Positions 5,236 to 20,991 of a stretch of 35,480 bases of DNA are shown piece after piece. The stretch covers positions 1-35,480 of the IMG/VR virus record IMGVR_UViG_3300021962_011440, one strand, 5' to 3'. The stretch comes from a virus. The notes beneath the pieces were generated by a model that saw nothing but the letters and a program-made list of their open reading frames with translations, was not told where the DNA came from and did no database searches. Positions within the stretch are counted from its first letter, which is position 1; every line of letters begins with the position of its first letter. The position numbers and the translations under genes are program-made.

Positions 5236-5874
5236 ATGAACTCAATGACAACTGAAGAGTCCCTGGTAGAGCCTGGGCACTTTGGGGACTCCGCTAGTAA
5301 CATCGTGGTACTGCGCAACTTTATAGACGCAGAAGATGTGGGGGCCGTCCAGCGGTTGTCTGCCCGAATTACCAAGTGGGATGATGCTGGAAAAGACATG
5401 TTCAATGACCACGGAGAGTGCATATACAACTCTTCGTATTGGCACCAGCGCGTCTGCAGTGATCTACTAGCCCAAGATGAGATTGGTGATCAACTGTACG
5501 AAATCATTGATCGCTATGTCCTCAAAATGAAGACATACCTAGAGGGGCGGTTCAAGGTTGAACTATCCCGTAGGAGCCCCACGTTGGTACGGTGGTTGCC
5601 GGGGACAGAGCAGGCGCCCCACGCTGATAAGCAACTCAATGACGGGTCGCCCAATCCGTTTCTAAATTACGACATCAACTCCATCTTCTACTGGAACGCT
5701 GACTTCGATGGAGGCCAGTTGTACTACCCACAGCACGGGATCGAATTACAGATCGAGCCGGGCATGGCTATCGCCCACCCAGGTGACATCCACTATCTCC
5801 ACGGAGTGCGCCGTATTACAAGAGGTGAGCGTTGGACCACTCCGGCGTTCTACACAATTACAAAGACCCTATGA
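5236..5874 (+). CDS. 2OG-Fe(II) oxygenase, prolyl-4-hydroxylase type (copy 1)
   Basis: The ATG at 5236 sits one base after the FPPX gene; the frame is open upstream, but only over the antisense-like repeat region. The product is 212 residues. The iron site of the family is complete: H129-x-D131 (PHADKQ) and distal H189 (HYLHGVRR), with R199 ten residues on as the expected 2-oxoglutarate anchor. Between them lie the family's typical FYWNADFDGGQLYY and PGMAIAHPGD segments. Members of this family hydroxylate protein side chains, classically proline, using 2-oxoglutarate and O2. Direct adjacency makes the FPPX protein an obvious candidate substrate, unproven. It overlaps the next gene by ATGA. 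Confidence 0.88.
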   Translation: MNSMTTEESLVEPGHFGDSASNIVVLRNFIDAEDVGAVQRLSARITKWDDAGKDMFNDHGECIYNSSYWHQRVCSDLLAQDEIGDQLYEIIDRYVLKMKTYLEGRFKVELSRRSPTLVRWLPGTEQAPHADKQLNDGSPNPFLNYDINSIFYWNADFDGGQLYYPQHGIELQIEPGMAIAHPGDIHYLHGVRRITRGERWTTPAFYTITKTL

Positions 5875-6782
5875 CCGAGTCTCCGTTATCCCGCATCCCT
5901 GCGCCATCCGACATAGAGAGCGTGCTGAATGTTCGCCCTAATGAATACACGCTAGACAAATCGGTGTATGAGGTAGACCTGGCTGAAGCCGGAACAGGAG
6001 AGCCGCTCCTCACTGATCGGCTAGGGAAGGTGACGTTGCTTTTTAATGTCGCCGCAGGTTGCGGGAATATACCCCAACACCAGCACCTTCAGTACATACA
6101 TCATAAGTATCTAGACAACCCACTATTCGATGTCATAGCAGTGGTTGTTGACGACTTCACCTGCCATGGTTACCCTGAGTTCAGTAACGGCCTACAGGAG
6201 TACATAGACGTGCATGAATTGGACTGTACGCCTGGAGAACTGTCCAGGGATTATGGGTCCCACCATTACGGTACTACGTTTAGGTACTCCGAATTGACCG
6301 CAGGGCGTATTGACAAGCACGTGTATGACCCCAAATGGGTCCCCAACGGGGAAGTACTCCAGGACCTCCACCCGCTCTGGAAGTTGCTGACCGGGTATGA
6401 CATTGCAGATATCCGTCCTGATGGGGTGCCATACCACGACGAATATGTTCCTTGGGTAAACAGTCCATTGGGACCGCCGGAGAATAGCAGCACGGCAGTA
6501 AAGAGGCGCGTACAGCCCATAACAGGAAATTTCACAAAGTTCCTAATCGATAAGACCGGAACTAAAGTTAAGAGGTTTGGCAATGGGTTCTTGACGGGTG
6601 AGCGCGATGCTCTAGGAAAACCCTTCCCGTGGTGGCCCCAGCACTACACCGAGGGGGGCGCCCCAAGCCACAAGCCACGTAAAATGACGAATCTCACCGT
6701 AGACAAGTTAAATAAACAATTTGGGATTAAATTGTCTTGCCGTATACTATCGTCGCACGTAGACGAGTTTATATCCGAATAA
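5871..6782 (+). CDS. Glutathione-peroxidase-like thioredoxin-fold protein, enlarged
   Basis: The ATG overlaps the previous stop (ATGA); 303 residues. The stretch GKVTLLFNVAAGCGN resembles the active-site segment of glutathione peroxidases (NVAS-x-C-G), placing the peroxidatic Cys at C64. NFTKFLIDKTG (N220-F-T-K-F) matches the conserved NFTKFLVD motif of the same family. The family's Gln and Trp active-site positions are not obvious: the expected CNQF region reads DDFTCHGYPEF. The protein is nearly twice the usual length of about 160-180 residues, with an extra N-terminus and a large central insert. It may reduce peroxides or act as a thiol redox protein that protects or recycles the neighbouring iron oxygenases; whether it is active is uncertain. 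Confidence 0.65.
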   Translation: MTESPLSRIPAPSDIESVLNVRPNEYTLDKSVYEVDLAEAGTGEPLLTDRLGKVTLLFNVAAGCGNIPQHQHLQYIHHKYLDNPLFDVIAVVVDDFTCHGYPEFSNGLQEYIDVHELDCTPGELSRDYGSHHYGTTFRYSELTAGRIDKHVYDPKWVPNGEVLQDLHPLWKLLTGYDIADIRPDGVPYHDEYVPWVNSPLGPPENSSTAVKRRVQPITGNFTKFLIDKTGTKVKRFGNGFLTGERDALGKPFPWWPQHYTEGGAPSHKPRKMTNLTVDKLNKQFGIKLSCRILSSHVDEFISE

Positions 6783-6795
6783 AGCGAGGAACAAA

Positions 6796-7440
6796 ATGGA
6801 TGTAGCAGGCGTAATTGGCCACCAGTACTCAGGAATCGTCCTATACAAGAATGTGTGGCCTAAAGACTCAAACTTCACCGAGAGGCTTGAGAACGTATTG
6901 TCTGAGAGCAACCACGATAGGTATTCATGGCATGTAGCAACCGTTGGTGACACCGAGTTGATGCTTGATTACCGCAACTGCTCTGACTACAAGATCCGCG
7001 AGGCGGAGTTGCCCATCATTGAACCTGGGTATGAAGAACTGGGCAAGATCTACACCGAGGTAATCACGGGTGTCCGTGAATGCCTGGCCCACTACTCAGG
7101 GCTATACAACAATCTCAAGTTGGACTACGAGGAGGCCACGAACTTTGTTCGGTACGAGGAGGGACAGCACTTCTCCATCCATCCTGACTCGGGGTACTCA
7201 TACTCATGCGTCGTTTCCACCATTGGGTACCTCAATGAGGGGTACACAGGCGGCGAGTACATCCTCCCATATTTCGATGTTAAGTTTAAGCCGGAGATGG
7301 GCGATGTAATTATCCACCCGTCCACGTTCGTCTACGCTCATGCGTCGCTCCCGGTCATTACGGGCACCAAGTACTCAGCAGTAACAATGTACGATTACAA
7401 CGACCGAAATCATCAGCATAAAGTAGCCAATGAAGGCTAG
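6796..7440 (+). CDS. 2OG-Fe(II) oxygenase, prolyl-4-hydroxylase type (copy 2)
   Basis: The ATG at 6796 follows a GAGG-containing ribosome binding site about ten bases upstream; 214 residues. The catalytic set is visible: H129-x-D131 (SIHPDSGY), distal H182 (YAHASLPV) and K192 as the probable 2-oxoglutarate anchor. The intervening GYLNEGYTGGEYILPYF and PEMGDVIIHPS follow the usual double-stranded beta-helix pattern of P4H-like enzymes. It is a small soluble protein without signal peptide. It lies between the peroxidase-like gene and a DUF6065-like gene, with the following ORF overlapping its 3' end. Substrate unknown. Confidence 0.87.
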   Translation: MDVAGVIGHQYSGIVLYKNVWPKDSNFTERLENVLSESNHDRYSWHVATVGDTELMLDYRNCSDYKIREAELPIIEPGYEELGKIYTEVITGVRECLAHYSGLYNNLKLDYEEATNFVRYEEGQHFSIHPDSGYSYSCVVSTIGYLNEGYTGGEYILPYFDVKFKPEMGDVIIHPSTFVYAHASLPVITGTKYSAVTMYDYNDRNHQHKVANEG

Positions 7441-8170
7441 GGTCACGATGATGCACCCTAATCCCCCGGTGATTAGGCGCGCTCATCCCAAACGTGACTG
7501 GATGGATGACACCTACCATCGTCACGCCTACACCTGCCTACCCGTCGCAACCGCCAACATCGCCGGATGGGAGTTGTTACTTCAGCAAGACATCGTCGTA
7601 CAGTACGACGGGAGTATGCACCCACCAAAAATACTGAGTGGTCAAACCTGTACTTTCGTCAGCCCACAAGGCGACGAGTACCAGCGAGACATAACGATTG
7701 CGACGATCACCGGCATGTTGTCTATCCCCACGGCGTGGGCGTTTACTCTACCGGAGCACTATGCGCTCTGGATAACGGGGTCTCCTAACTACTTTGTGGA
7801 TGGGGCAGTGCCACTGTCTGGTTCTATCCCCTATTGGTGGCCTGAAGAATTCAATATGAACTGGAAGATTACAAAAATCAACGAGCCAGTGACGTTCAAG
7901 GCGGGGGAACCCTTTATGTTCTTCCAGATATACGATACGCGCTTGATGCCATCTGTTGAGTTTGTGGTTGACAACATATGGGACAACGAAACGCTCATAG
8001 CAGAACGCCAGGAATACCGCAAGGTCAAAGAACAGCAACGAGTTGACGAGCCGTGGAAATGGATGGGTACAATAAGAACTGGCCTAGACCATAATGGTCG
8101 ACGGATCGGCCCAAAACACGAACGATTAGAGCCCCTGAAGGAGCCAACGTGGCAATTAAAGGCGGAATAG
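7430..8170 (+). CDS. DUF6065-like protein of unknown function
   Basis: Up to 246 residues; I give the first ATG at 7430, which overlaps the previous gene by 11 bases, but ATGs at 7448 and 7451 are equally possible. The N-terminal part reads YTCLPVATANIAGWELLL followed by VQYDG, which I recognise from memory as resembling DUF6065, a family seen in bacteria and phages; not verified. Further on come IPYWWPEEF, FKAGEPFMFFQIYD and a charged C-terminal helix (AERQEYRKVKEQQRVDEPW). No known catalytic motif is apparent. Such proteins lie near oxygenase and halogenase genes here, so a role in the same pathway is possible. Confidence 0.7.
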   Translation: MKARVTMMHPNPPVIRRAHPKRDWMDDTYHRHAYTCLPVATANIAGWELLLQQDIVVQYDGSMHPPKILSGQTCTFVSPQGDEYQRDITIATITGMLSIPTAWAFTLPEHYALWITGSPNYFVDGAVPLSGSIPYWWPEEFNMNWKITKINEPVTFKAGEPFMFFQIYDTRLMPSVEFVVDNIWDNETLIAERQEYRKVKEQQRVDEPWKWMGTIRTGLDHNGRRIGPKHERLEPLKEPTWQLKAE

Positions 8171-9681
8171 CCCTAGGGCTAAAGTTGGGCAACCTGGGGT
8201 TTAAGATCAGGGGCATAACCGAGGTAGACAACAGCAAGGGCTACTTCTCCGAGATATTCGCTAAGCACAAAGCCATTGGGTTTATTGGCTTAAGCCCCAC
8301 TGTAGAGCAGCACGCCGAACTATTAAAAACTCTATATGCCGGGGATACCTCGCAGGAGTTGAATCCCCTAGTAACAGAAGGGCAAAACCACTCGACGATA
8401 GCCAACGTGGAGAACTGGACTAATAGAGATTACTTCATTCACCAAAACTGGCATCTTGATCACTCGTTCTTTGACTACACAACTTCCCTGTTGTCAATGC
8501 ATATGACTACGTTTACATGCCCCAAGGAACGTGGACAAACACATTTGGCTAGCCTGATCGACCTATATGGGTCACTACCGGGGAGCATCCAGGAACAACT
8601 GCAAACTGCGGAGTTTGAGTGTTGGACGGGGTCTGAGGGGCTTTCAGGCACACGTCACCCTGCCCTCCGAACGCACCCCGTAACAGGGGAAACGTCACTG
8701 TACTGGAGTGGCGGTGATACTCGCCTAGTAGGGGAGGATACGGGCTGGTTTCAGAAACTTAAAGAGCATATCGATACATACCTTCTCGATAGGTCAAACT
8801 GGTGGTCATGGGAGTGGTCTGAGGGTGACGTGCTGGTCTGGGATAACAGGTGCTTAATCCACTCGTTTAGCCCTGGATGGAATCGTGGTCAGCGGGTTTT
8901 TAATCGCGGGCATATCGGTGCAGAACGGCCCTTCTATGATTCGTCATTTTGTCCCGAGTTAAACCCCGATTTTGGAGACACCAACATCTTTAAAGGGGTT
9001 GAGCGAGACACCTCCAGCGGCCCCAACCCAGACCATATCCCGCTCGTGTTCACACACGGTATATATGGACTACCCGGACTAGAACACCTATACCAGAAGG
9101 TGACGGTGGTGGTAACCACACATATGGTTACTGATTCGTTCAACCGATTTACTCAGGTGTTTCAAGATGATGAGGAGTTTGCGGTAGAAGTAATCACCGA
9201 AGATCGCCCTGAACTGTACAGGCACCTACACCGGTACGCCGACAGGTTCTTTAACGAGCCACTAAACAGTGATCACATTCTAGTAGTGTCCAAGAACGGC
9301 GATGTCCTAGGGGGTCTCAGGCTTTCTGACGATCTTCTTACTAATGAGAGGGTTGACCCTGAGACATCCACTCCGATGGAATTTATTAAAGGGCTACTGA
9401 GTATCCACCCCGACATGCGCCACGCAGGGCATTCCTGGCACTACCCCGACTGGTTCAAGCATCAACCACTACAGGAGCGACCCTGGAGTTATCGCAATCT
9501 GTCATTTTTTAAATACAACCAAGAACCAACGGAAGACTTCCTGGTCCAATTTGCCATAGACACAGTGTACGGGTGCTTCAATCACCTAGAGAACGACGAG
9601 GATCGTAAGCGTGTTATCGAGCGGATACACGACTACATCTCATACATGCTCGATCTGGGAGAGTACAAACATGACCGGTGA
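8149..9681 (+). CDS. TauD/TfdA-type 2OG-Fe(II) dioxygenase fused to an unknown C-terminal domain
   Basis: The GTG at 8149 is chosen because AAGGAG precedes it at about 8 bases; it overlaps the previous gene by 22 bases. The product is 510 residues. The first 265 or so look like a TauD/TfdA dioxygenase: H102-x-D104 (WHLDHSF), a G-x-T-x-LAS segment (GQTHLASLIDLYGSLP), SLYW, then WSEGDVLVWDNR with distal H238, and arginines at R249 and R253 for 2-oxoglutarate. Family members oxidise small substrates such as taurine, alpha-keto acids or carnitine precursors. Residues about 280-510 (FTHGIYGLPGLEHLYQK, then DHILVVSKNGDVLGGLRLSD) belong to no domain I recognise. The enzyme class differs from the P4H-like neighbours and may supply another oxidation step. 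Confidence 0.82.
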   Translation: MAIKGGIALGLKLGNLGFKIRGITEVDNSKGYFSEIFAKHKAIGFIGLSPTVEQHAELLKTLYAGDTSQELNPLVTEGQNHSTIANVENWTNRDYFIHQNWHLDHSFFDYTTSLLSMHMTTFTCPKERGQTHLASLIDLYGSLPGSIQEQLQTAEFECWTGSEGLSGTRHPALRTHPVTGETSLYWSGGDTRLVGEDTGWFQKLKEHIDTYLLDRSNWWSWEWSEGDVLVWDNRCLIHSFSPGWNRGQRVFNRGHIGAERPFYDSSFCPELNPDFGDTNIFKGVERDTSSGPNPDHIPLVFTHGIYGLPGLEHLYQKVTVVVTTHMVTDSFNRFTQVFQDDEEFAVEVITEDRPELYRHLHRYADRFFNEPLNSDHILVVSKNGDVLGGLRLSDDLLTNERVDPETSTPMEFIKGLLSIHPDMRHAGHSWHYPDWFKHQPLQERPWSYRNLSFFKYNQEPTEDFLVQFAIDTVYGCFNHLENDEDRKRVIERIHDYISYMLDLGEYKHDR

Positions 9682-10468
9682 AGACTTGGGCGGTGGGGTT
9701 GTCCTATACGACAACGTCTTCGATATTGACTGGGCATGGATGCGGGATTATTGCACCACCGTGCTGAAGCGAGAGCGGGATGCCATGTACACCCCCGGAC
9801 AGAACCCAATAACAGGGGAAATGGGGTACATCAATAAGAGCGGGTATTTCTTCTCGACCTCCTCTATCGATGTTATGCCATGGCGCGGGTCAGCAATTCA
9901 CCAGGACACAGACCCTGAGGTCATTAAAGTCCTAAACCATATTGAGGATAGGCGAGACGCCTGCCTACAGGACTACCTCAACAAGTACCCCATCGCTGGC
10001 ACATGTATCTGGTGGAAGATAAAGAGCCATATCGTGGCATACCCGACTGGGTCATATCTCGGCATGCACGCCGACGTTGCCACAGAGTACGAGTACGGAA
10101 AGCCCCACCCAACTGACCAGATCGCCACACGTAATACCGTGTCTGTAGTTGCATACCTCAATGACTGCGTCGATACCGAGGAAGAACTAGACGGCACCAA
10201 CTTCACGGGTGGTCACCACCACTTTGGCTACCTCAACTTAACCCACAAGCCCAAAAAGGGCCAGATCTTGTTTTTCCCGTCGAATTACGTAGCGGCCCAT
10301 GAAGTTCAGCCGATTACTGCCGGTTGGAGATACTCATATTTAGGCTGGTACTGCCAGGGTACTCCCAACCCTAAAGTTAGTGAACATGTCGAAGACCCCC
10401 TGCTTAATCCCCAAGCGGCTCAGATATCGACAAACGTATACATGCTAGACGGATACAAAGCGAGGTAA
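9671..10468 (+). CDS. 2OG-Fe(II) oxygenase, prolyl-4-hydroxylase type (copy 3)
   Basis: The ATG at 9671 overlaps the previous gene by 11 bases; 265 residues. The iron ligands are H133-x-D135 (GMHADVATEY) and distal H210 (AAHEVQPI), with R220 ten residues downstream. The segment VSVVAYLND before a GGHHHFGYLNL stretch and KKGQILFFPSNYV follow the family layout. The insertion between the HxD strand and the next strand (GKPHPTDQIATRN) is longer than in copies 1 and 2 and resembles the minus-strand enzyme at 11715-12689. It is followed three bases later by the NAD-binding gene. Confidence 0.87.
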   Translation: MTGEDLGGGVVLYDNVFDIDWAWMRDYCTTVLKRERDAMYTPGQNPITGEMGYINKSGYFFSTSSIDVMPWRGSAIHQDTDPEVIKVLNHIEDRRDACLQDYLNKYPIAGTCIWWKIKSHIVAYPTGSYLGMHADVATEYEYGKPHPTDQIATRNTVSVVAYLNDCVDTEEELDGTNFTGGHHHFGYLNLTHKPKKGQILFFPSNYVAAHEVQPITAGWRYSYLGWYCQGTPNPKVSEHVEDPLLNPQAAQISTNVYMLDGYKAR

Positions 10469-10471
10469 CGG

Positions 10472-10999
10472 GTGGTTATCGGCATTTTGCATATGGGAAA
10501 GATGGGGTCATCCCTTGCCGCGGAACTCAAGAAAAAGGGCCATACGGTCATTACCTCTACCGTAAACAGATCAGAGGAAACAAAGCGTAGGGCCAGGGAA
10601 CTGCTGATCGCAGACTTGCCATCGGAAGAGGACGTGTTCCACATGGCGGACATGGTCATCAGTATTTGTTCTGGGGGTGGTTATATGGCCATTGCCCAGA
10701 AAGCCAAGGACGTGTGGTTCCAGGGGTTCTTTGTCGAGGCAAATTCGATGCCCCAGCACGATGCTGATACCATTAGGCAACTTCTAATCAACGTGTGCTC
10801 GTACGTTGATGCTGGGATCTACGGATATCCGATCCCAGAACCTGAGGGTTTCACGACAGAGCGGACTATCTATGCCCAGGGATTCGGATCCCGGGTGTTG
10901 CGCTCCCTACTAGAGGGGACGGCCTTCAACGTGGAAGTGACTATGGAGCCTGGAAAGGTTGTCAAAGAAGAACGACATCAGAGGGAGTCTGCAGGATGA
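10472..10999 (+). CDS. NAD(P)-binding Rossmann protein, dehydrogenase-like, lacking the C-terminal domain
   Basis: The GTG start follows a GAGG motif and gives 175 residues. VIGILHMGKMGSSLAAELKK is the nucleotide-binding GxxxxG start of the 6-phosphogluconate/3-hydroxyisobutyrate dehydrogenase family, followed by the usual second strand HTVITSTVNRSEET, the strand ADMVISICSGGG, and FFVEANSMP, which fits the family's substrate-side loop. The protein stops where the helical C-terminal dimerisation and catalytic domain (normally about 120 more residues) would begin. It could be a stand-alone NAD(P)-binding subunit, a domain working with a neighbour, or a decaying gene; the intact ATGA coupling to the next gene argues against simple decay. 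Confidence 0.7.
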   Translation: MVIGILHMGKMGSSLAAELKKKGHTVITSTVNRSEETKRRARELLIADLPSEEDVFHMADMVISICSGGGYMAIAQKAKDVWFQGFFVEANSMPQHDADTIRQLLINVCSYVDAGIYGYPIPEPEGFTTERTIYAQGFGSRVLRSLLEGTAFNVEVTMEPGKVVKEERHQRESAG

Positions 11000-11718
11000 A
11001 AAAGTCGTCTGACATCATAACTCCTAATCTTCGGATTATCCCTGACTTCTTATCTAGGGACGAGATTGACTTCTGGCTTACGTTATTCCATGACGAACAA
11101 TCATGGGATGGTGGCCTCGAAGCGGGTCGTGGAAGATTCATGACATCAGAATCAATAGTTTATTCGGATCACTATCTCGACGCTTACCACGCACTTCTAG
11201 AAAAGGTATGTAGTTACCTGGAGACTATCTATGAAGAACCTCTTGTGGTGTTACACACCCCATCGTTTAGGAAATACCAAACAGGGGACTCCATCGGATG
11301 GCATTTTGACTTTTCGAGAGACGGTGACGGTGAAGTGCTTCAATTACGGGAAGAAACACGACGACCGGGAGAAAACTCTCCATACCCAGCGGGTCTCCAC
11401 GATATGCAGACCGTCCTGTACTTCAATGATGATTATGAAGGCGGGCTAGTACGGTTCGGGGAAGGGGACTGGATTCAGCCTAAGGCCGGGATGTTAATTA
11501 CATGGCCATCAACTCACAAATATGGACACGGCGTAAGTGAGATCACGTCGGGAGAACGCTACATTTCGGCGATGTTCTGGATGCGGGCTAAAACCTTCGT
11601 GTTGGCGTCTCTTGGCGATTTGATCGACTCAGAGTGGCGCGACTGGTTGATGTGGCCGGAGAAGATTGATGTTATGTTCGGCAACCCCATTGAAGTAGAC
11701 GATGCCTCAGTCAGTTAG
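10996..11718 (+). CDS. 2OG-Fe(II) oxygenase, prolyl-4-hydroxylase type (copy 4)
   Basis: The ATG overlaps the previous stop (ATGA); 240 residues. H103-x-D105 (GWHFDFSRDG), distal H178 (YGHGVSEITS) and R188 (GERY) make a complete metal and 2-oxoglutarate site. TVLYFNDDYEGGLVRFGEG and PKAGMLITWPSTH are typical of P4H-like enzymes such as those of cyanophages. The C-terminal 40 residues (LGDLIDSEWRDWLMWPEKIDVMFG) are an extra helical tail. The gene ends tail to tail with the minus-strand oxygenase at 11715-12689, the two sharing four bases, so no terminator separates them. Confidence 0.87.
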   Translation: MKKSSDIITPNLRIIPDFLSRDEIDFWLTLFHDEQSWDGGLEAGRGRFMTSESIVYSDHYLDAYHALLEKVCSYLETIYEEPLVVLHTPSFRKYQTGDSIGWHFDFSRDGDGEVLQLREETRRPGENSPYPAGLHDMQTVLYFNDDYEGGLVRFGEGDWIQPKAGMLITWPSTHKYGHGVSEITSGERYISAMFWMRAKTFVLASLGDLIDSEWRDWLMWPEKIDVMFGNPIEVDDASVS

Positions 11719-12689
11719 TCGTAGGGTATAAGCGTACCCTCTGCAGGCCCTTCGGGCATACGGTTCTGCTTTAGTGGCGTTGAGGCAAACAGCCCTAGTT
11801 TTACCTCATCAGAATCGTCATAGTGGGATAAGCCACTGTTAACCAGAGCCTCGTAGTCCTGTCGAACAAACGGCATATACGCCGGAGGTCCCCACTCCCC
11901 ACCGCTTGCTGGTTCCGCAATTTCAAAGACCTGGTGTCCCCCATTGCCGTATTCAACTAGATACACGTAACGTGATCCGCTCGTGACCGGGGATACCCCA
12001 TGGGTACCAACGTAGTTTGCGGGGAAAAACACTATGTCGCCCCTGTCGGCCTTTAGGGTTACGCCGGCTACGGGGAACCGGAACACACCACCTTCGTAGT
12101 CGTCATTGAGGTAAAGTATTGCGTTAACCGTTTGGTGCAGGGCGATATCTCGCTGGGCAAAGTACCTCTGCCCATCAATGATCATCGTGTTGGAGTCATT
12201 GTCATTATGAAGGCCAAGGGAAGCCCCCTCCAGATACTTCAACACATGGCCTCGCGCCCGCCACTGAAGAGTACCGAGGACAAAGGGGTGAAGATCAGTG
12301 TACCGAAGGAGGCACTTATACGCGGCGTCCTCGGCTTCACAGAAGAAATCAACAATAGAAGAGGGCGTATCAGCAGTAACCGGTCCTCCGCCCTCGCCGT
12401 GGGGGTTATAGAACCGCATAGGCATGCGAATAAGGTTTTCGTATGCCACCTCTGTACCATCGTAGAGATACGCCTTTTTGGAACCATCATCCTGGGTCTC
12501 AATACGCATACCACACGAAGGGACTTCGACGTTGTTATCGATATAAGGAAGGACTTCGTCATTGGGAATGCTGATCACATTCTTGAACTGGACGATCCCG
12601 CACCCGTGGTTAATGTATTCAATGTTTGCGAGTTCATGGATACGATCTCGACCTAACTTTGCGTATGGGTATGCTGTTGCTACCGTCAC
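11715..12689 (-). CDS. 2OG-Fe(II) oxygenase, prolyl-4-hydroxylase type (copy 5, minus strand)
   Basis: 324 residues, the longest of the P4H-like set. The site is H161-x-D163 (LGLHNDNDS), distal H230 (GTHGVSPVTS) and R240. AILYLNDDYEGGVFRFPVAG and ADRGDIVFFPANYVG are the diagnostic strands. An N-terminal extension of about 130 residues (RFYNPHGEGGGP and a helical SSIVDFFCEAEDAAYKC segment) precedes the catalytic core, and the loop after HxD is long, as in copy 3. It is the last gene of a leftward operon; its start overlaps the stop of the methyltransferase-like gene (ATGA). A short inverted repeat at 11723-11740 lies within its 3' end. Confidence 0.87.
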   Translation of the reverse strand: MTVATAYPYAKLGRDRIHELANIEYINHGCGIVQFKNVISIPNDEVLPYIDNNVEVPSCGMRIETQDDGSKKAYLYDGTEVAYENLIRMPMRFYNPHGEGGGPVTADTPSSIVDFFCEAEDAAYKCLLRYTDLHPFVLGTLQWRARGHVLKYLEGASLGLHNDNDSNTMIIDGQRYFAQRDIALHQTVNAILYLNDDYEGGVFRFPVAGVTLKADRGDIVFFPANYVGTHGVSPVTSGSRYVYLVEYGNGGHQVFEIAEPASGGEWGPPAYMPFVRQDYEALVNSGLSHYDDSDEVKLGLFASTPLKQNRMPEGPAEGTLIPYD

Positions 12690-13465
12690 GAAGTGCGCCT
12701 CCCTATGGCGAATCCGAATTCTACTGGTACGTGCATGATTTCAAAGTCCGACCTATTTACAAGGTACTTGTTGAGGATGCTGTAGTCATTCTCATGTGTG
12801 CGCAAACTATCACGATACAGACTGCTGTAGTCGGATATGGTCGAAATGGATAAGCGACCTCCAACCTTTATGGAGTTTAATACTCCCTCGGTCAAAGACA
12901 GGGTCGAGAACATAAGGTCACGGCTGTAGGTACGCACCAGATCAAAGTACTGATCGAGAGAGCCGTCCACTAATTCCTGAGCGTCTACCACGGTATACCG
13001 AAGTTGGGAGAAGTCAGCAACGTGGGAGGTTTGCTGTAGGAACTTCTCCACCATACAGAAGTCCGGTGTATTGATGAAGTACAAATCCACATCTGGGCGG
13101 TTCGGTGAGTCGATGATCTCGTGCATCTGCGATACTGGCTCGGCCAGAACCTTTTGGGGATTTTCTGGGGTGCCCGTGTCGCCAAGAAGGGCAATAAGGC
13201 GAGATAATGACAGGGTCATCCAAATGCCGTCTGCCCACCCCTCATTATCTGCGTTACTGGAGATGAGGTCGTACTTGAACAATTCACCGTCTGACGAGGT
13301 GGCAATGTTCCTCTTATCAACATTGCATTCGTTTAGGAAATTGCGAGCGAACACACCGAAGTCGGACATCAACTCAGAGCGAGCGTGCAAGTCTGACGCT
13401 GAGGATACGCTGGAGTACATGCGAGCGACACGAGAGCGCTCAAACCATTGGTTGCTGTACATCAT
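12686..13465 (-). CDS. Methyltransferase-like protein
   Basis: The ATG at 13465 overlaps the upstream stop (ATGA) and gives 259 residues; an ATG at 13501 is possible but would overlap the upstream gene by 40 bases. The second half resembles the later strands of a class I SAM-dependent methyltransferase: LRYTVVDAQELVDGSLDQYF, then LMFSTLSLTEGVLNSI and VGGRLSISTI. The glycine-rich SAM-binding loop of motif I is not clear, so the assignment is weak. The C-terminus, FEIMHVPVEFGFAIGRR, fits a final beta-strand pair. Its place between an oxygenase and small unknown genes suggests a tailoring role. Confidence 0.5.
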   Translation of the reverse strand: MMYSNQWFERSRVARMYSSVSSASDLHARSELMSDFGVFARNFLNECNVDKRNIATSSDGELFKYDLISSNADNEGWADGIWMTLSLSRLIALLGDTGTPENPQKVLAEPVSQMHEIIDSPNRPDVDLYFINTPDFCMVEKFLQQTSHVADFSQLRYTVVDAQELVDGSLDQYFDLVRTYSRDLMFSTLSLTEGVLNSIKVGGRLSISTISDYSSLYRDSLRTHENDYSILNKYLVNRSDFEIMHVPVEFGFAIGRRTS

Positions 13466-13776
13466 GCTACCTGGGCTTTCGCAATCGTGTAGCCTCGCCA
13501 TACACGGCGAGCGGAACGCAGAAGTGACACTCGGTATTTCTGTGTAAAAAGATAAGCAGGCTCGTATTGCTCAACGTCCAGGTTTTCCTGGGACCCCTCA
13601 ACCTGTCGCTTCGGGTGCAGTTCGATAATCGCACCGACTAGGTCATCAATGGTGCAATCGGCGGTGGGGTCTAACCCACAGCAGTAGCGGAGCACCGTCA
13701 GCATGTATTCATGGTATTCAATGTCAGATTGAGGGCTATAAGCAGTAGTTGCCGACCCCGATGCTTTTGACCTCAT
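13462..13776 (-). CDS. Hypothetical protein
   Basis: 104 residues from the ATG at 13776, with AAGGAA about seven bases upstream. I do not recognise the family. The N-terminus SGSATTAYSPQSDIEYH precedes a helical segment with two adjacent cysteines (LRYCCGLDPTADC), and the C-terminus is strongly basic (RVSLLRSARRVWRGYTIAKAQ). It is coupled to the methyltransferase-like gene downstream by ATGA overlap. It could be a small accessory or nucleic-acid-binding protein, but nothing specific supports either. Confidence 0.6.
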   Translation of the reverse strand: MRSKASGSATTAYSPQSDIEYHEYMLTVLRYCCGLDPTADCTIDDLVGAIIELHPKRQVEGSQENLDVEQYEPAYLFTQKYRVSLLRSARRVWRGYTIAKAQVA

Positions 13777-14232: not shown

Positions 14233-14241
14233 GACGCCTCC

Positions 14242-14505: not shown

Positions 14506-14511
14506 ATTATA
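14506..14511 (-). promoter_or_regulatory. Candidate -10 box (TATAAT) of the leftward operon
   Basis: A perfect TATAAT on the minus strand lies 37 bases upstream of the ATG at 14469. A weak -35 match (TTGTAG) lies 19 bases further upstream, a slightly long spacing. It would drive the six leftward genes ending at 11715. Confidence 0.45.
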
Positions 14512-14526
14512 CATACCGCTATCACC

Positions 14527-14628: not shown

Positions 14629-14638
14629 AACTACCCCG
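14572..14638. repeat. Direct repeat, left copy (lipoprotein gene 5' end)
   Basis: This segment matches 15156-15222 in the same orientation at a distance of 584 bases. The two copies flank the tRNA-like gene and all of the lipoprotein gene beyond its signal peptide. Recombination between them would remove both. Confidence 0.85.
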
Positions 14639-14660
14639 TAACGTAGTCCTGAAAAATTAC

Positions 14661-14739
14661 GCCCGGTCGTGGGGCTGGTTGCCCCAGCCTGTCTTATATA
14701 CAGGTCCGCTCAGCGAAGGTTCGATTCCTTGGCCGGGTA
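14661..14739 (+). tRNA. tRNA-like gene, anticodon UAU (Ile, codon AUA) by fold
   Basis: The segment folds as a cloverleaf. The acceptor stem GCCCGGT pairs with GCCGGGT (one wobble at each end), the D-arm is TGGG/CCCA with a GG-containing loop, the anticodon stem is CCTGT/ACAGG around loop CTTATAT, and the T-loop is TTCGATT with a stem of four good pairs. The loop reads anticodon UAU. Departures from a standard tRNA are C instead of U at position 8, a mismatch at the base of the T-stem, and a ten-base variable region that can itself form a three-pair stem (CGC/GCG). No CCA is encoded. It could be a divergent functional phage tRNA or a decaying one. It ends six bases before the 3' end of the convergent lipoprotein gene. 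Confidence 0.6.
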
Positions 14740-14744
14740 CAAAA

Positions 14745-15212: not shown

Positions 15213-15222
15213 AACCACCTCT
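15156..15222. repeat. Direct repeat, right copy (5' end of intact lipoprotein gene)
   Basis: The right-hand partner of 14572-14638. It covers the ribosome binding site, start codon and signal peptide of the intact lipoprotein gene. Confidence 0.85.
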
Positions 15223-15268
15223 GTTCGGCATCCTAGCCCATGCGATTGCCTTATGCTAGTTTGTCTCT

Positions 15269-15694
15269 ATGGACAGAGTCGTTTTTTGCCCGACAGATGG
15301 CGACCTAGAGGAAGCGGAAAAAATTGCACGGGAGTACATGCTCCCTATAGTGCGCAAGGGGTCACCCGCTCTGGAGAGTTTAGAATTTGATGAAACTAAA
15401 GTCCAATTTCTGCTAATTCCTAAAGAGCAGTTTTTGAGGTTTCAAAGCACCAAAGTCAGCGCTGGGGACCCCATAGTCTGCAAGTATGTGGATGAATTTT
15501 CTGATACTGACGGCATTTTTATGGACATTAAGCAAAACGATTCTCTCATCAGGACTGTTTCTCAATTTTTGCCGTACAGTCAGCCTCACGTAGCGAGTTT
15601 TAGATTCGTGATTACGGTTCCCGGATCATATAAATGCGAAATTTTTGACAAAGATGGACTAATTGCGTTTGAGCAAATCGAGGTTCTTTTGTGA
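15269..15694 (+). CDS. Hypothetical protein, first gene of the halogenase cluster
   Basis: 141 residues from the ATG at 15269. A divergent intergenic gap of only 56 bases separates it from the lipoprotein gene. I do not recognise the family. The N-terminal third is charged and helical (DGDLEEAEKIAREYMLP), and the remainder alternates short strands (VQFLLIPKEQFL, FRFVITVPGSYKCEIFD, FEQIEVLL), giving an immunoglobulin- or C2-like impression. There is no signal peptide or catalytic motif. Its stop overlaps the next start (GTGA), so it is co-translated with the oxygenase. Confidence 0.65.
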   Translation: MDRVVFCPTDGDLEEAEKIAREYMLPIVRKGSPALESLEFDETKVQFLLIPKEQFLRFQSTKVSAGDPIVCKYVDEFSDTDGIFMDIKQNDSLIRTVSQFLPYSQPHVASFRFVITVPGSYKCEIFDKDGLIAFEQIEVLL

Positions 15695-16275
15695 TAACCC
15701 TTGAGGATTGCCCAATCCCAGCAGTTTCGATTTACCAAACTGACTACGTGTTCCAGCCGTTAATCCAGCGAGCAGAGGAGATCTGCAGCCAGGACTCGGG
15801 AAGTGGGATTTCGTGGTCCCCGGGGAAGGTCGGTCATGACGGTGGTGTTGTCAGTCGCCATCGGACTTCTCTCGTTTGTTCTCTCGAAGAATTAATGAGG
15901 GCCGATTCCAAGATGAACGACCTGTTTAGAGATTTGCACGTCGAACTAGAGGAAGCCATCTGGGACTATAGAAAGTCTTACTCTTTGACGTTGACGGCAA
16001 ACCAAGGTTACCTAATTAACAAGTATGGCGCTGGGGCTGAGTACAAGCCCCACTCTGACTCTGGCGCCGACAAAGAGAGAATTCTCAGTCTTGTACTTTT
16101 CATGAATACCCCCGAAGACGGAGGGGGTCTTCGTTTCCCACTATTTGACAAAGTAATCCCCTGCACAGAAGGGAAAATCATTTTGTTTCCCTCAAACTTC
16201 GTCTACAAGCATGCTGCGCTGCCGGTCATGTCATCGTCATTGCCCAAGTATTCCCTCGTGACCTGGTTTCACTGA
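15691..16275 (+). CDS. 2OG-Fe(II) oxygenase, prolyl-4-hydroxylase type (copy 6)
   Basis: The GTG start at 15691 overlaps the preceding stop (GTGA); 194 residues. The active site is H121-x-D123 (KPHSDSGAD) with distal H174 (YKHAALPV); K186 is the likely 2-oxoglutarate anchor. LVLFMNTPEDGGGLRFPLF and TEGKIILFPSNFV match the other copies, and the overall shape is closest to copy 2. The domain is minimal, with short N- and C-termini. It is followed one base later by a related protein that lacks the HxD motif. Confidence 0.86.
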   Translation: MITLEDCPIPAVSIYQTDYVFQPLIQRAEEICSQDSGSGISWSPGKVGHDGGVVSRHRTSLVCSLEELMRADSKMNDLFRDLHVELEEAIWDYRKSYSLTLTANQGYLINKYGAGAEYKPHSDSGADKERILSLVLFMNTPEDGGGLRFPLFDKVIPCTEGKIILFPSNFVYKHAALPVMSSSLPKYSLVTWFH

Positions 16276-16276
16276 A

Positions 16277-16843
16277 ATGACCATAAGCCCAAGACTTTTA
16301 GACTTGCCCTTCGAAACAGGCGCACGCGTTTTTATTACAGACTTTGCCGATGACACATTGGCGGGACGAATTCACGACTCGTCGCGAGATGAGTGGTCCT
16401 TGCTTTCATATAGCCAAGGGGACTACGGGTCATTGCTTAATACGGAAGTCGTCGACCTTGCCCCACTAACACACGGACCTGTACATTTTGAAAAAGATTT
16501 ACTGGACCGGGTGCATCATGTCAACGAATACCTAGAGGAAGCAATTCACGCCTACATGCCAGAATTTGGCATACAAATGCAGCGCGATTTGGCGATTCAG
16601 GTTTATTCGGCAAGAGGCACGGGGGTTACGTCCGCTTTCCCCGCAAGAAGCCCGAAATCTGGGATAAATGCGAACATGTGCATTTCTCGCAACATGAAAC
16701 TTATTTTCCCAGTTCTTAACCTGCGCCTAGAATTGATGTTTGGGGATATTCTCATGATGCCCGCTCAATTCCCACACTTCTTTGCAATTGAATGCAGCAG
16801 TGTCGACCCCGTATCATTTGTCCGCAAGGAGTTGGTCGGCTAA
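16277..16843 (+). CDS. Oxygenase-like protein without the HxD iron motif
   Basis: 188 residues from the ATG at 16277. The order of secondary-structure segments follows the P4H-like enzymes: a YLEEAIHAYMPEF helix, then IQVYSARGTG where active copies have a Y-x-x-G stretch before HxD, then LELMFGDILMMPAQFPHFF, which parallels PEMGDVIIHPSTFVYAH in copy 2. The HxD pair is missing (the corresponding region reads SAFPARSPKS). A histidine remains near the distal position. It may be a non-catalytic partner of copy 6 or of the halogenase, or may bind something other than iron. The relationship is my inference from layout, not from strong identity. Its stop overlaps the halogenase start (TAATG). Confidence 0.5.
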   Translation: MTISPRLLDLPFETGARVFITDFADDTLAGRIHDSSRDEWSLLSYSQGDYGSLLNTEVVDLAPLTHGPVHFEKDLLDRVHHVNEYLEEAIHAYMPEFGIQMQRDLAIQVYSARGTGVTSAFPARSPKSGINANMCISRNMKLIFPVLNLRLELMFGDILMMPAQFPHFFAIECSSVDPVSFVRKELVG

Positions 16844-18300
16844 TGAAGGTCGTCATAGTTGGGGCGGGTACGGCGGGCCTAATCGCTGCCCTACAAATCA
16901 AGACGGTGTTGCCAAACTGTCAGGTCGAGATCGTGAGATCTGGCGAAGTTAAAATTATTGGCGTCGGAGAGGGGAGCACTGAGCACTGGACTGAATTTGA
17001 AAAGACTGTTGGTTTCTCGCGATCAGAAATGATCGAGAAAACTAAAGCAACTTACAAATTTGGTATTCGTTTTAAAGGATGGAGGGATAGCCCTTTCACG
17101 GATTATTTCCATAGCGTAAGTTCACCGGGAATTGATAGGCACGGTTTCAACGCTGGATACGCACTTCCGGCTGTAATGGGTAAGCAGTTGACGCCATTTT
17201 TCACCAATCCTGCCATGAGGGAAGGTTTCGTCAAGGACCAAGAAAACATTCATAGCCAGACAAATCAATTTCACTTTGACACCTTTTCTCTCAACGAATA
17301 CTTTCTCGACCTTTGTGCCAAAAAACAAATAACGGTAATAGATGGCCATGTTCGCTCTGCGGAACTAGACGCCGACAATGGCAATATTCTGGAGTTAAAT
17401 GCTGACGTCGGAAGCATAAAAGGCGATTTTTTCATAGACGCAACTGGGTTTTCTAGGAGCATTTTTAAGTTCGTAGCCGAGCCTAAGTGGAAATCTTTTT
17501 CGCCCTATTTGCCGTGTGATAGGGCTATCGCAACACAAACGCCAGAACGCGAAGATGGAGTAATCCTCCCATACACGGTGGCGCATGCTCTTTCCTCGGG
17601 TTGGAGATGGGAAATCCCAACACAGGAGCGAAGGGGCAATGGATACGTGTATTCATCTACGCATTGCACTGAAGAGCAAGCGGTAGAGGAACTACAGAAA
17701 GTTATCGGCTACAAGATTCAGGACTACCGTTCTTTCTCGTTTGAGCCAGGCTACGTGGCAAATCCCTGGGAGAAGAACTGCTGTTTGATTGGGTTGTCGT
17801 CTGGCTTCGTTGAACCACTTGAGGCAACTTCCATTGCTGCGTCAATTCAGCAGTCTCTTGCACTCACCAAGTATTTGCCAGTTGCTCGATACGACGCATC
17901 GGGCATCGGGAGGCGCAAGTACAACCAGAAAATGTCATCGATGATGGAAAACATTCTGGCGATGATTGCTATGCACTACATGACAGACCGTAGAGATACG
18001 GAAATGTGGAGATCAATGGCAGATCGCGAAGTGCCCGAACAACTCCAAGAGTATGTTGAATTGATTAAACTGCACGGGCCAGGGCAGTTTGACATGCCGA
18101 CGATGGGGTGGGAACTTTTTCATCCTCCCCACTTCTGGCACGTTGCCCAAGGTCAAGGGCTTCTTTCCCGAGATGCGTTAATGACTTCGTTAGAGTCCAG
18201 AGTTTCGCTAGACGAATTCAGTGCCCACATGACAAACTTGACCAGAGAACGCCTGCAACAAAAATTGATTCCGCATAGAGAGGCATTGCAGAGAAAATGA
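16843..18300 (+). CDS. Flavin-dependent tryptophan-halogenase homologue
   Basis: The ATG at 16843 overlaps the previous stop; 485 residues, close to the family's 500-540. The FAD-binding GAGTAG is at 7-12, followed by GVGEGSTEHW at 40-49. The lysine that activates hypohalous acid in PrnA (K79) corresponds to K72 in ATYKFGIRF. The family signature WxWxIP is present as WRWEIP at 254-259. The catalytic-base glutamate lies in FVEPLEATSI as E327; the following Ser of plant-associated halogenases is Ala here. These enzymes use FADH2 and O2 to halogenate an aromatic carbon. No flavin reductase gene is seen, so the host would have to supply reduced flavin. A phage relative, VirX1 from a cyanophage, is known to halogenate (mainly iodinate) varied aromatics. 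The substrate here is unknown. Confidence 0.93.
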   Translation: MKVVIVGAGTAGLIAALQIKTVLPNCQVEIVRSGEVKIIGVGEGSTEHWTEFEKTVGFSRSEMIEKTKATYKFGIRFKGWRDSPFTDYFHSVSSPGIDRHGFNAGYALPAVMGKQLTPFFTNPAMREGFVKDQENIHSQTNQFHFDTFSLNEYFLDLCAKKQITVIDGHVRSAELDADNGNILELNADVGSIKGDFFIDATGFSRSIFKFVAEPKWKSFSPYLPCDRAIATQTPEREDGVILPYTVAHALSSGWRWEIPTQERRGNGYVYSSTHCTEEQAVEELQKVIGYKIQDYRSFSFEPGYVANPWEKNCCLIGLSSGFVEPLEATSIAASIQQSLALTKYLPVARYDASGIGRRKYNQKMSSMMENILAMIAMHYMTDRRDTEMWRSMADREVPEQLQEYVELIKLHGPGQFDMPTMGWELFHPPHFWHVAQGQGLLSRDALMTSLESRVSLDEFSAHMTNLTRERLQQKLIPHREALQRK

Positions 18301-19058
18301 CAATGGAGTTTCATTTTCCTCTAGGGAAGACGGCGCACATCATGTATGCCGACGATTGCTTTGATGCCAACCTTTCGTCCATGCTGGTCGAAGAATGCAT
18401 CAAGAACTTCAATGCCCTGTTTACGCCTGGGCCAACCATGGGTGGCATAGACACGAATATTAAATCTTCGATGGACATGAATTTTTCGACATTTTCTCTT
18501 GCAAATATCGGTTTGGACACAAATGTTTTTGCCAGAGCGGAGACGGAAATATTGCGCGGCATGTGGTCGACAGTTGCCCACTACAGGGACCACTATCCCC
18601 ATCTCCATAGATGGCCCAACATGGAAGACACCGGTTTTAGGCTTCAGTACTATGCTCGTAATACTGGTTTTTATCGAGAGCATGTGGACTCTCAGCCCTG
18701 GCTCAACACTTTTAAGCAGGAAACCAAAAAAAGACGAGTTCTTGCCGCTGTCATATACCTCAATGACGTCGAAGTTGGGGGAGAGACATTCTTCTCTTCC
18801 CACGACTTCCTGTTGCCTCCTCGCGCCGGGAGAATAGTCCTATTTCCCGCAGAATGGACCCACCCCCATGGTTCTCGAACGCCAATTTCGCATGCGAAGT
18901 GGATGATCTCGACTTTCCTTACTTGCGAGCCAAATCAACAGCCGGAGTGGCGCCAGGATCCTCAAGAAGAGCCTAAAATTGAAGAAAGCCAATTGACGGA
19001 AACGCCCGAAGACTCAGGCGAAGAGGTGAGCGATGGACCCGGAAGTATCTCCGAATGA
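18297..19058 (+). CDS. 2OG-Fe(II) oxygenase, prolyl-4-hydroxylase type (copy 7)
   Basis: The ATG overlaps the halogenase stop (ATGA), so the two are translationally coupled; 253 residues. The catalytic set is H129-x-D131 (REHVDSQPW), distal H189 or H191 (THPHGSRTP) and K201. AAVIYLNDVEVGGETFFSS and PRAGRIVLFPAEWTHPHG are textbook P4H-family segments, and this copy is the nearest of the seven to classical prolyl 4-hydroxylases. The last 50 residues are an acidic disordered tail rich in Glu, Pro and Gln, which could tether a partner. Confidence 0.88.
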   Translation: MTMEFHFPLGKTAHIMYADDCFDANLSSMLVEECIKNFNALFTPGPTMGGIDTNIKSSMDMNFSTFSLANIGLDTNVFARAETEILRGMWSTVAHYRDHYPHLHRWPNMEDTGFRLQYYARNTGFYREHVDSQPWLNTFKQETKKRRVLAAVIYLNDVEVGGETFFSSHDFLLPPRAGRIVLFPAEWTHPHGSRTPISHAKWMISTFLTCEPNQQPEWRQDPQEEPKIEESQLTETPEDSGEEVSDGPGSISE

Positions 19059-19167
19059 CTGGAGCGAGGATCACGGTCGTTTTGTCGACGACCAGGAAGC
19101 AAACCCGATTTTTTGCGTAATGTTTGATACGCCTCAAATTTTCACTTTGCCAGAAGAAGAGTCGTGA
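19034..19167 (+). pseudogene. Possible small acidic ORF broken by a frameshift
   Basis: An ATG at 19034 opens an acidic frame (MDPEVSPNDWSEDHG). Around 19080-19083 a one-base shift would join it to a second acidic frame (VDDQEANPIFCVMFDTP, then LPEEES) that stops at 19165-19167. Read together they give a plausible peptide of about 43 residues; as sequenced, the first frame stops at about 19118. Either a single-base error or a real lesion could explain this. Otherwise the 110 bases between the oxygenase and the next gene hold nothing else. Confidence 0.25.
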
Positions 19168-19168
19168 G

Positions 19169-19438
19169 ATGTATAGCCTCGTAGAAGACTACAACTACGT
19201 AATCGATCAATTGAGTGCGCTAATTGTCGAATTGGGTGGGGAAATCGAAGATGTCGGCACCATTACCCTTGAAGATGCCCTAATTCTGCTGGTGACGACA
19301 TACCCGCCAGCAGGCGCTCATCCAGACCCCTCAACCAACCCAGAATGGATTGGGCTATCCAAAAATTATGTTCTGAAATCTTCCCTGATAAGAAAATGGT
19401 TATACTATCGAGACCTGCTAAGCGCAAGGATGTTGTGA
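19169..19438 (+). CDS. Hypothetical small protein
   Basis: The ATG at 19169 gives 89 residues (MYSLVEDYNYVIDQLS). The frame also extends upstream to a TTG, but without start signals. The N-terminal half is helical (LIVELGGEIEDVGTITLEDA), followed by a Pro-rich loop (TTYPPAGAHPDPSTNPEW) and a basic C-terminal helix (IRKWLYYRDLLSARML). Not recognised. It stops one base before the methyltransferase-like gene and is presumably co-transcribed with it. Confidence 0.6.
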   Translation: MYSLVEDYNYVIDQLSALIVELGGEIEDVGTITLEDALILLVTTYPPAGAHPDPSTNPEWIGLSKNYVLKSSLIRKWLYYRDLLSARML

Positions 19439-19439
19439 A

Positions 19440-20147
19440 ATGGCAAACGTGTCAATAGACGATATTTTCTCTGTCGCCGAGGAATTGAGTTTTACTGCCT
19501 CGGAATCGGACTGTACGCCCGAAAATGAACTGGCCTTAGTACGTGCTGCTGCAGTTCTTGAAGGGCAAGAAGGGGCCGACAGGTCGCGATCCAGTATCGG
19601 GTTCAACGATGAACTAAACTACTACGAGTTCGTGGGAGCAGGTTCGAGTACGTTCATGCCCATCTGGCTTTCTCAAAAGACGCAGATGGAGTGCATTTTG
19701 CGAGCAAAGCGCCCAAACGCCGTTTTGGTGGGCGGTTTTGTTGCCGGTCCACTTTCGGTTGCTTCGGCAGTAGGGGCAACGGAAATCGACGTCATTAACT
19801 CAGTGCATCTCGACTACTACGAGCGCTTCTATCCCGGCAGCAAGCCAGACTACAACACGGTCACCTTCCAGGATATTGAGCAAAACATCTTCCCAAGGAC
19901 ATACGATGCCGTCGTAGTCCTTGCTTCCCACGTTGCCCACAATCCAGAAATTCTTGAGAATATTTACGGATCCCTCAATAGCCAGGGCGTTATCTTCCTG
20001 GTGGCGTCTCATGACCAGGGAAATCTTTACAAATTCAAAGAAACCCATCCCTATTATTCAATGTACGTGTCTGCGTCAAACTGGGAAGGCGCCCACGTAT
20101 ACCAAATTCCTGCTGGCCTTGGGTCAACCGTGATTACCAAGGAGTAA
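19440..20147 (+). CDS. Class I methyltransferase-like protein
   Basis: 235 residues from the ATG at 19440. NAVLVGGFVAGPLSVAS stands where motif I of Rossmann-fold SAM methyltransferases would be, followed by IDVINSVHLDYYERFYPG (motif II position), a conserved-acidic DAVVVLASHVAHNPEIL (motif IV region) and LNSQGVIFLVASHD (motif V/VI). The glycine loop is altered (GGFVAGPLS rather than GxGxG), so SAM binding is uncertain. It could alternatively be a nicotianamine-synthase-like or inactive Rossmann protein. It occupies the same position relative to oxygenases as the methyltransferase-like gene of the first cluster. Confidence 0.55.
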   Translation: MANVSIDDIFSVAEELSFTASESDCTPENELALVRAAAVLEGQEGADRSRSSIGFNDELNYYEFVGAGSSTFMPIWLSQKTQMECILRAKRPNAVLVGGFVAGPLSVASAVGATEIDVINSVHLDYYERFYPGSKPDYNTVTFQDIEQNIFPRTYDAVVVLASHVAHNPEILENIYGSLNSQGVIFLVASHDQGNLYKFKETHPYYSMYVSASNWEGAHVYQIPAGLGSTVITKE

Positions 20148-20148
20148 G

Positions 20149-20991
20149 GTGACTGCCCAAAAAGTCAAAGTTGTTTCTGCTGAGCATTTTTTCCAAATCC
20201 CAGAGCCTCTACCTGGTCAAATTTTAATTGCTCCAGTTAGCAATAAATTACTGGAACCAGACACCATGCCAATAGACAATTCGGCGTCCTTGCCAGAATG
20301 GTTTCGAGCGCTCGACAAAGATAAGCCCATGAGGCGTTGCCAGGGGACTTATGATTGGGTCAGGAATGGGGTGACCCTCAGAACCCCGGCAGACATCGAG
20401 TTCCGTGTTGGCCCAGACGGGGTGAACTGGCAGGCGCGATACGCCGCCAACCTGAACGAATTATCTTCCTCCCTCGACATTCAGGCATTCCAATTTGCCA
20501 GTACTGGAGCGACCCCAACCTCTAGTGCCCGGGCTTACCCGGAAAGTCTTTACGTAAAAGTAATTAACCCCTGGAAAATAAAGACCGCCCCAGGATGGTC
20601 GACGCTAAGCATGCCCGTCTACTGGGATCGCCCGTCACGAGATTGGGAAGTAATTCCGGGATGCGTCAACACCGACTACTACCACTCTGCCCACTGGGTA
20701 ATTAATATTTTTACGGATACTCCATTTGTGATCCCTTCGGGGACCCCAATCGTCCACCTGGTCACGGTCCCTCGGGCTGATGATATTGGAATTTTAATAG
20801 GTGACCATAAAGTTGCCAATATACTAGAGAACCGAGGATTTGGGGGTTTTGTTGTCCCCAAGGATCGCCGAGTTCGCTACAGGAGAGAGCAGAGAAGGGC
20901 TGGATTCGCAGACTGCCCTCACGTGGCCGAATATAGGTCGAATCGCCCTTGGTGGAGGTCTTTCTTCAGCAGCGGCCTCGGGAAAAACTGA
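20149..20991 (+). CDS. Unknown phage protein, possibly distantly DUF6065-related
   Basis: The GTG at 20149 is supported by AAGGAG ending seven bases upstream; 280 residues. The middle has the pattern VINPWKIKTAPGWSTLSMP, then W..IPGCVNTDYYHSAHWV, then FVIPSGTPIVHLVTVPR. I have seen this pattern in phage and bacterial proteins of unknown function; the order of motifs loosely recalls the protein at 7430-8170, so both may belong to related families. The arrangement suggests a small beta-barrel or cupin-like fold. The C-terminal 60 residues are very basic (VPKDRRVRYRREQRRAG). It is the last gene of the halogenase cluster. Confidence 0.6.
   Translation: MTAQKVKVVSAEHFFQIPEPLPGQILIAPVSNKLLEPDTMPIDNSASLPEWFRALDKDKPMRRCQGTYDWVRNGVTLRTPADIEFRVGPDGVNWQARYAANLNELSSSLDIQAFQFASTGATPTSSARAYPESLYVKVINPWKIKTAPGWSTLSMPVYWDRPSRDWEVIPGCVNTDYYHSAHWVINIFTDTPFVIPSGTPIVHLVTVPRADDIGILIGDHKVANILENRGFGGFVVPKDRRVRYRREQRRAGFADCPHVAEYRSNRPWWRSFFSSGLGKN

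Follow-up and report, generated by a model that had tools for sequence, protein, structure and literature searches.

A phage tailoring locus with two oxygenase modules, a flavin halogenase and adjoining repeat-rich, adhesin-like proteins

Gene content and active sites

The virus record IMGVR_UViG_3300021962_011440 of IMG/VR, which was analysed complete (35,480 bases, classed as linear; hereafter the window), carries a tailoring locus between tail-type genes upstream and a lysin-type gene downstream. Judging from WhiB and a proteasome-like gene in the window, the host of this uncultured phage is probably an actinobacterium. An original prediction had drawn attention to positions 5236–20991, in which it recognized seven prolyl 4-hydroxylase (P4H)-type oxygenases of the 2-oxoglutarate (2OG)-Fe(II) class, a TauD-type enzyme, and a halogenase, and had suggested one dedicated modification pathway. 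The features that matter most lie outside that span: a protein with a (PP[F/H]F)n tail at 4851–5234 and the Gly-rich proteins at 21022–23500. Taken together with these, the genes form two modules, listed here with gene starts corrected for OG1 (5236), the peroxidase-like gene (5871), OG3 (9671), and the halogenase (16843).

Module A and adjacent genes (4851–13501)
4851–5234, +, PASTA-domain protein whose C-terminus is a (PP[F/H]F)n tail, possible substrate for module A (PF03793 PASTA, 2e-6)
5236–5874, +, OG1, P4H-type 2OG-Fe(II) oxygenase, module A clade (phrog_61, 2e-9; HxD..H..R; tree)
5871–6782, +, glutathione-peroxidase/thioredoxin-fold-like protein (PF00255, 1e-4, under the cut-off; PDB Hyr1, 4e-6)
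6796–7440, +, OG2, P4H-type oxygenase, module A clade (PF13640, 2e-8; HPD..H..K; tree)
7430–8170, +, DUF6065 protein (PF19541, 3e-38)
8149–9681, +, TauD/TfdA-type 2OG oxygenase with a fused, unassigned C-terminal domain (PF02668, 9e-23)
9671–10468, +, OG3, P4H-type oxygenase, module A clade (PF13640, 4e-11; tree)
10472–10999, +, short NAD(P)-binding Rossmann protein (PF03446, 7e-6)
10996–11718, +, OG4, P4H-type oxygenase, module A clade (PF13640, 6e-10; tree)
11715–12689, −, OG5, P4H-type oxygenase, module A clade (PF13640, 4e-9; tree)
12686–13501, −, methyltransferase-like protein, family A13, shared with 19440–20147 (O-methyltransferase match very weak, E 0.047)

Module B and adjacent Gly-rich proteins (15269–23500)
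15269–15694, +, h15269, small conserved protein heading the module (distinct adhesin loci with it: 40 of 55)
15691–16275, +, OG6, P4H-type oxygenase, module B core (PF13640, 8e-15)
16277–16843, +, degenerate P4H-fold protein, iron site lost (hhalign E 1.5e-18 against the OG6 family; no HxD)
16843–18300, +, flavin-dependent halogenase (PF04820, 5e-94)
18297–19058, +, OG7, P4H-type oxygenase, module B clade (PF13640, 2e-11; tree)
19124–19438, +, h19124, small conserved protein (synteny)
19440–20147, +, methyltransferase-like Rossmann protein, same family as 12686–13501 (O-methyltransferase match very weak, E 0.047)
20149–20991, +, h20149, dUTPase-fold protein, phrog_7084, homologue of Syn9 gp43 (conserved next to the halogenase)
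21022–21375, +, small conserved protein of the adhesin block (synteny)
21375–22061, +, ADH1, Gly-rich adhesin-like protein (linked to the halogenase in 34 of 34 loci)
22064–23500, +, ADH2, adhesin-like protein with a Gly/His/Asn/Pro-rich hypervariable insert, candidate module B substrate (composition)

The active sites predicted for these enzymes are borne out. HxD, the distal H, and a basic R or K are kept in all seven P4H-type oxygenases in one alignment; the degenerate protein at 16277–16843 has no HxD. Six of the seven pass the PF13640 cut-off, while the seventh, OG1, matches phrog_61. Among 46 relatives of OG6 (about 30–40% identity), H121, D123, and H174 are invariant and K186 is nearly so; because the iron ligands are invariant across these relatives, strong selection for catalysis in this family is indicated. 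The solved structures closest to the OG6 family in a PDB search are those of the P4H of Bacillus anthracis (3itq, 5hv0; E 3e-13), which differs in being a single cellular gene. For the seven P4H-type proteins, hydroxylation of peptidyl-proline is a predicted activity. The TauD fusion keeps its own site (H102xD104 and H238), with HxD and H invariant in four homologues. The halogenase is full-length and has the features of Trp-type flavin halogenases, namely GxGxxG, WxWxIP, the catalytic Lys (K74), and Glu (EPLE). The redox-like proteins are represented by a weak, sub-threshold likeness to glutathione-peroxidase-type thiol peroxidases, in a gene that overlaps OG1 via ATGA, and by the short NAD-binding protein; the methyltransferase-like label has behind it one very weak match. 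Nor is such a collection of 2OG oxygenases unique: up to 15 PF13640 genes are found in one IMG/VR contig, and the cultured cyanophages Syn9 and S-CREM1 have about nine to ten oxygenase-type genes in a run next to a halogenase.

Linkage to two kinds of protein

When 261 oxygenases in a tree are marked as linked to proline-rich (PP-repeat) proteins or to the halogenase, the two groups separate: labels change three times, versus at least 73 in shuffles. The nearest neighbours of OG1–OG5 are PP-linked, and those of OG6, OG7, and the degenerate gene are halogenase-linked. Since the labels partly follow phage lineages, the tree reflects a stable association of enzyme and partner, not independent repeats. 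One shared pathway for all seven oxygenases is rejected on this separation, and the locus is, as judged from the tree, two modules with separately evolving oxygenases.

Module A is tied to the (PP[FYH]F)n proteins. In the window the repeat is encoded by a 12/36-bp tandem array (5091–5224) within the PASTA gene. A DNA pattern scan of virus stretches found repeats of this type in at least 120, and in 33 of the 38 distinct testable IMG/VR cases an oxygenase gene follows within 3 kb downstream, versus none of the 38 upstream. By N-terminal family, and before removal of near-duplicates, linkage was seen in 26/26 Fn3-like, 12/12 PASTA, and 0/4 minor-family proteins. PF13640 genes occur in 13 of 15 whole PP-repeat contigs, at 5 to 15 each; two single virus contigs, of 34.7 and 154 kb (L275/L347; G022, G025), carry 11 and 15. 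The stretches fetched for 64 PP-repeat loci showed no halogenase.

Module B is tied to the paired Gly-rich proteins that it adjoins. Its order in the window is h15269, OG6, the degenerate oxygenase, halogenase, OG7, h19124, methyltransferase-like protein, h20149. Over 200 virus loci were retrieved with the halogenase, ADH1, or h20149 as query, and in these the order ADH1-ADH2-h15269-OG6-halogenase-h20149 recurs, or the adhesin genes stand at the opposite end as in the window. Distinct ADH loci flanked by 7 kb on each side number 34; all of them have the halogenase and h20149, and 33 have an oxygenase. ADH loci lacking the halogenase stop at a contig edge close to the adhesin. Across 20 long contigs, 63 PF13640 genes were counted, of which 54 are at most 15 kb away from the halogenase (14.2 expected); in the 15 without an expanded set, 22 of 25 are at most 5 kb away (1.9 expected). 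A search for the same gene set in other phage genomes had been set beforehand as a test, with scattered unrelated neighbours as the outcome that would speak against the original prediction. Such scattering was not found: scores of virus contigs repeat both the gene content and its order. A dedicated tailoring locus is supported in this way, as two modules in place of the single pathway first proposed.

It could be argued that this linkage lacks functional meaning, an old late-gene operon having been passed on as a block while its enzymes act on assorted unrelated targets. All loci could stem from a few ancestral operons, and two N-terminal families make up most PP-repeat cases. In three loci (L012–L014), however, the order of adhesin and enzyme genes is reshuffled and the linkage kept, and cyanophages with no detectable ADH homologue still pair the enzymes with other Gly-rich proteins. 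We therefore regard this explanation as improbable.

ADH2 resembles ADH1 and carries a large insert in addition. In the 111 long homologues, inserts of this type are 20.7% Gly, 11.6% His, 7.9% Asn, and 7.4% Pro, with 0.6% Trp and few charged residues, and NPG and GNP are enriched five-fold. The best BFVD matches of ADH2 are collagen-like viral proteins. From composition, variability, and position we infer that ADH1 and ADH2 are adhesins. T-even gp38-type adhesins, marked by a polyglycine-II sandwich fold, presumably resemble them in having Gly-rich repeats broken by hypervariable stretches; a sequence or PDB fold match was not found for ADH2, and the His content of its insert is extreme. The more oxygenases a locus has, the richer its insert is in Asn-Pro (rho 0.77), a trend that the phylogenetic contrasts given below attribute mostly to shared ancestry; His content did not track oxygenase number. 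Two ADH-type loci encode tail-collar-like phage proteins, also with His-rich stretches (L078, 17530–18546; L165, 3350–4411).

Proposed function and competing explanations

The linkage and the separate clades support phage adhesins among the substrates originally listed, and nothing points to a small molecule or a host surface component. It is our favoured explanation, and a reasonably probable one, that the substrates of these enzymes are surface proteins of the phage itself, modified post-translationally, module A acting on the (PP[F/H]F)n tail and module B on the ADH2 insert. OG1–OG5, with the TauD-type enzyme, would hydroxylate prolines in the tail of the PASTA protein (4851–5234), while OG6, OG7, and the halogenase would act on the Gly/His/Asn/Pro-rich insert of the adhesin at 22064–23500, probably helped by h15269, h20149, and the degenerate P4H-fold protein. 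Since the solved structures nearest to OG6 are those of P4H enzymes, proline is the first candidate residue, in NP or PG motifs. 2OG oxygenases of other kinds hydroxylate Asn and His, so these may be considered as alternatives. As Trp is almost absent from the insert, His or Tyr side chains are proposed for the halogenase, a choice that is a guess, and the halide is likewise a supposition. Such chemistry has precedent, since halogenated His and Tyr are present in sponge skeletal material (PMC8659048). The likely gain would be a tougher or chemically altered receptor-binding surface.

Several observations weigh against this explanation. The loci share descent, so the linkage counts do not amount to independent trials. 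An adjacent oxygenase is lacking for four distinct (PP[FYH]F)n proteins, of the minor N-terminal families, and for one other. Phylogenetic contrasts leave r 0.21 and t 1.97 for the relation of insert Asn-Pro content to oxygenase number. The AlphaFold2 (AF2) model of the window ADH2 (pLDDT 67.6) is poor in the insert, residues 276–419 being disordered, and a PDB fold match for ADH2 with E below 1 was not found. Five of the 12 cultured-phage halogenases compared have no Gly-rich protein inside the fetched stretch. Finally, a modified residue has not yet been observed.

The conserved neighbour h20149 bears on another possibility, that the cluster modifies nucleotides or DNA bases, h20149 and the weakly related DUF6065 protein binding nucleotides while the oxygenases and halogenase hypermodify pyrimidines. 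The AF2 model of h20149 (pLDDT 88) matches dUTPase (Z 10.0, 132 residues, 2.9 Å). Genes like it are common in haloarchaeal tailed viruses, and HSTV-2 gp40 (L254, 7824–8693) adjoins genes for thymidylate synthetase and DNA polymerase, away from fibres. OG5 has, in addition, a sub-threshold Tet_JBP match. The oxygenases are nevertheless P4H-like by Pfam and PDB, motif 3 of h20149 reads V[N/H]TDYYH versus VID in dUTPases, replacing Asp by Asn or His, and the window shows tail genes as neighbours and no base-hypermodification gene. Base modification is thus very unlikely; h20149 likely binds or scaffolds, and catalysis by it is doubtful. DUF6065 was also tried as a functional guide and set aside. 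It was found at five loci in bacterial or archaeal genomes, four of them alphaproteobacterial with uninformative neighbours; the fifth (L255, DUCD01000215.1) belongs to a phage contig in its own right, one that contains module A. That contig, filed under a Verrucomicrobiales metagenome-assembled genome and probably mis-binned, is phage-like and carries a PASTA-(PPFF)n gene, many oxygenases, and TauD genes in a tandem set of three to four.

Cultured phages and known systems

Homologues of ADH1, DUF6065, and the PP-repeat proteins were not found in cultured phages by tblastn. VirX1, the halogenase of cyanophage Syn10 (6QGM), halogenates many small aromatics in vitro, and its native substrate is not known (PMC8407142). 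The window enzyme is 25% identical to it and keeps the catalytic Lys, WxWxIP, and EPLE. Syn10 has a window-type layout, with Gly-rich proteins, a homologue of h20149, and oxygenase-like genes in a run; it differs in phage group, in adhesin family, and in having two halogenases. In Syn10, S-SZBM1, S-CREM1, P-TIM40, and S-WAM1, the halogenase has Gly-rich proteins at a distance of at most 4 kb; in S-H38 and HTVC008M the distance is 5–9 kb, a partial agreement. The layout is not seen in P-SSM2, S-MbCM25, S-PM2, S-SSM7, and AG-345-O18, which means that halogenases of this family occur in more than one kind of neighbourhood. P-SSM2 was dropped as a model, its halogenase not adjoining Gly-rich proteins.

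The breadth of VirX1 in vitro lends some weight to the idea that the enzymes serve to synthesize or tailor a small molecule or host-surface component in the course of infection, fibre proximity being a gathering of late-expressed cargo genes. The TauD, NAD-binding, methyltransferase-like, and peroxidase-like genes are typical of tailoring enzymes, and the halogenases of S-MbCM25, S-PM2, and S-SSM7 sit among host-like genes. On the other side, no gene for biosynthesis of a scaffold was recognized in the window, the partner is the same type of protein at every locus, and each partner has an oxygenase clade of its own. Of the alternatives this has the most in its favour, and we still think it unlikely.

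In T4-like cyanophages, 2OG-Fe(II) clusters (phrog_61) of the same superfamily and neighbourhood occur in Syn9 and S-CREM1, where the run of oxygenase-type genes adjoins the halogenase. The published reading of such oxygenases is nitrogen control or DNA repair, not adhesin modification (PMC3037559). Control of the host's nitrogen metabolism through depletion of 2-oxoglutarate, put forward for cyanophages (Sullivan et al., 2010; PMC3037559), is a most improbable account of the window, as it requires the cyanobacterial regulator NtcA, while WhiB and the proteasome-like gene point to an actinobacterial host; it also leaves the halogenase, the many diverged copies, and the fixed partners unexplained.

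The proposed modification of the phage's own proteins has a parallel in chlorovirus PBCV-1, for which a P4H and 4-hydroxyproline in viral proteins are described (Eriksson, 1999, as cited in PMC9301287). In both, P4H-type enzymes are encoded alongside proline-rich proteins of the virus; the window differs in belonging to a phage and in its clustered diverged copies, adjoining partner gene, and halogenase module. Beyond the remark in PMC9301287, no published link of phage halogenase or P4H to adhesins was found in the literature searched. A wider reading can be put forward tentatively, as somewhat less than an even chance: that aquatic phages have a dedicated system for adhesin maturation, whose halogenase and P4H-type oxygenases, helped by a dUTPase-fold protein, put halogen and hydroxyl on His/Asn/Pro-rich hypervariable receptor-binding loops, VirX1 and its relatives being protein halogenases.

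When 2OG oxygenases and halogenases are found in phages, they are usually classed among auxiliary metabolic genes of no known substrate. Their fixed pairing with (PP[FYH]F)n and Gly/His-rich adhesin-like proteins names concrete protein substrates, testable in cultured cyanophages, and offers the first testable natural substrate for phage halogenases. It suggests that many aquatic phages chemically alter their own attachment proteins; if so, enzymatic hydroxylation and halogenation would widen receptor-binding chemistry past the twenty amino acids.

Other genes of the window were noted in passing. A tail-region protein with DUF5122 beta-propeller repeats (1–1986) contains a 150-bp tandem array of 4.9 copies and is followed by three tandem paralogue-like proteins (1929–3681). 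A single tRNA-Ile(TAT) (14661–14740) separates the two modules. At 23829–25985 lies a protein with a SUEL galactose/rhamnose lectin domain, a signal-peptide-like start, and long Thr-rich repeats; the next (25986–27548) has a signal-peptide-like start, an Ig-like domain, and a C-terminal LPVTG-type sortase signal, and is possibly a phage-encoded protein anchored in the host wall. Proteasome-subunit-like, WhiB, and macro-domain genes stand in a row at 32363–33746. The published genome of the lake phage DSL-LC01 also has WhiB and a tryptophan 7-halogenase (PMC10611076), and this phage probably belongs to the same group as that of the window.

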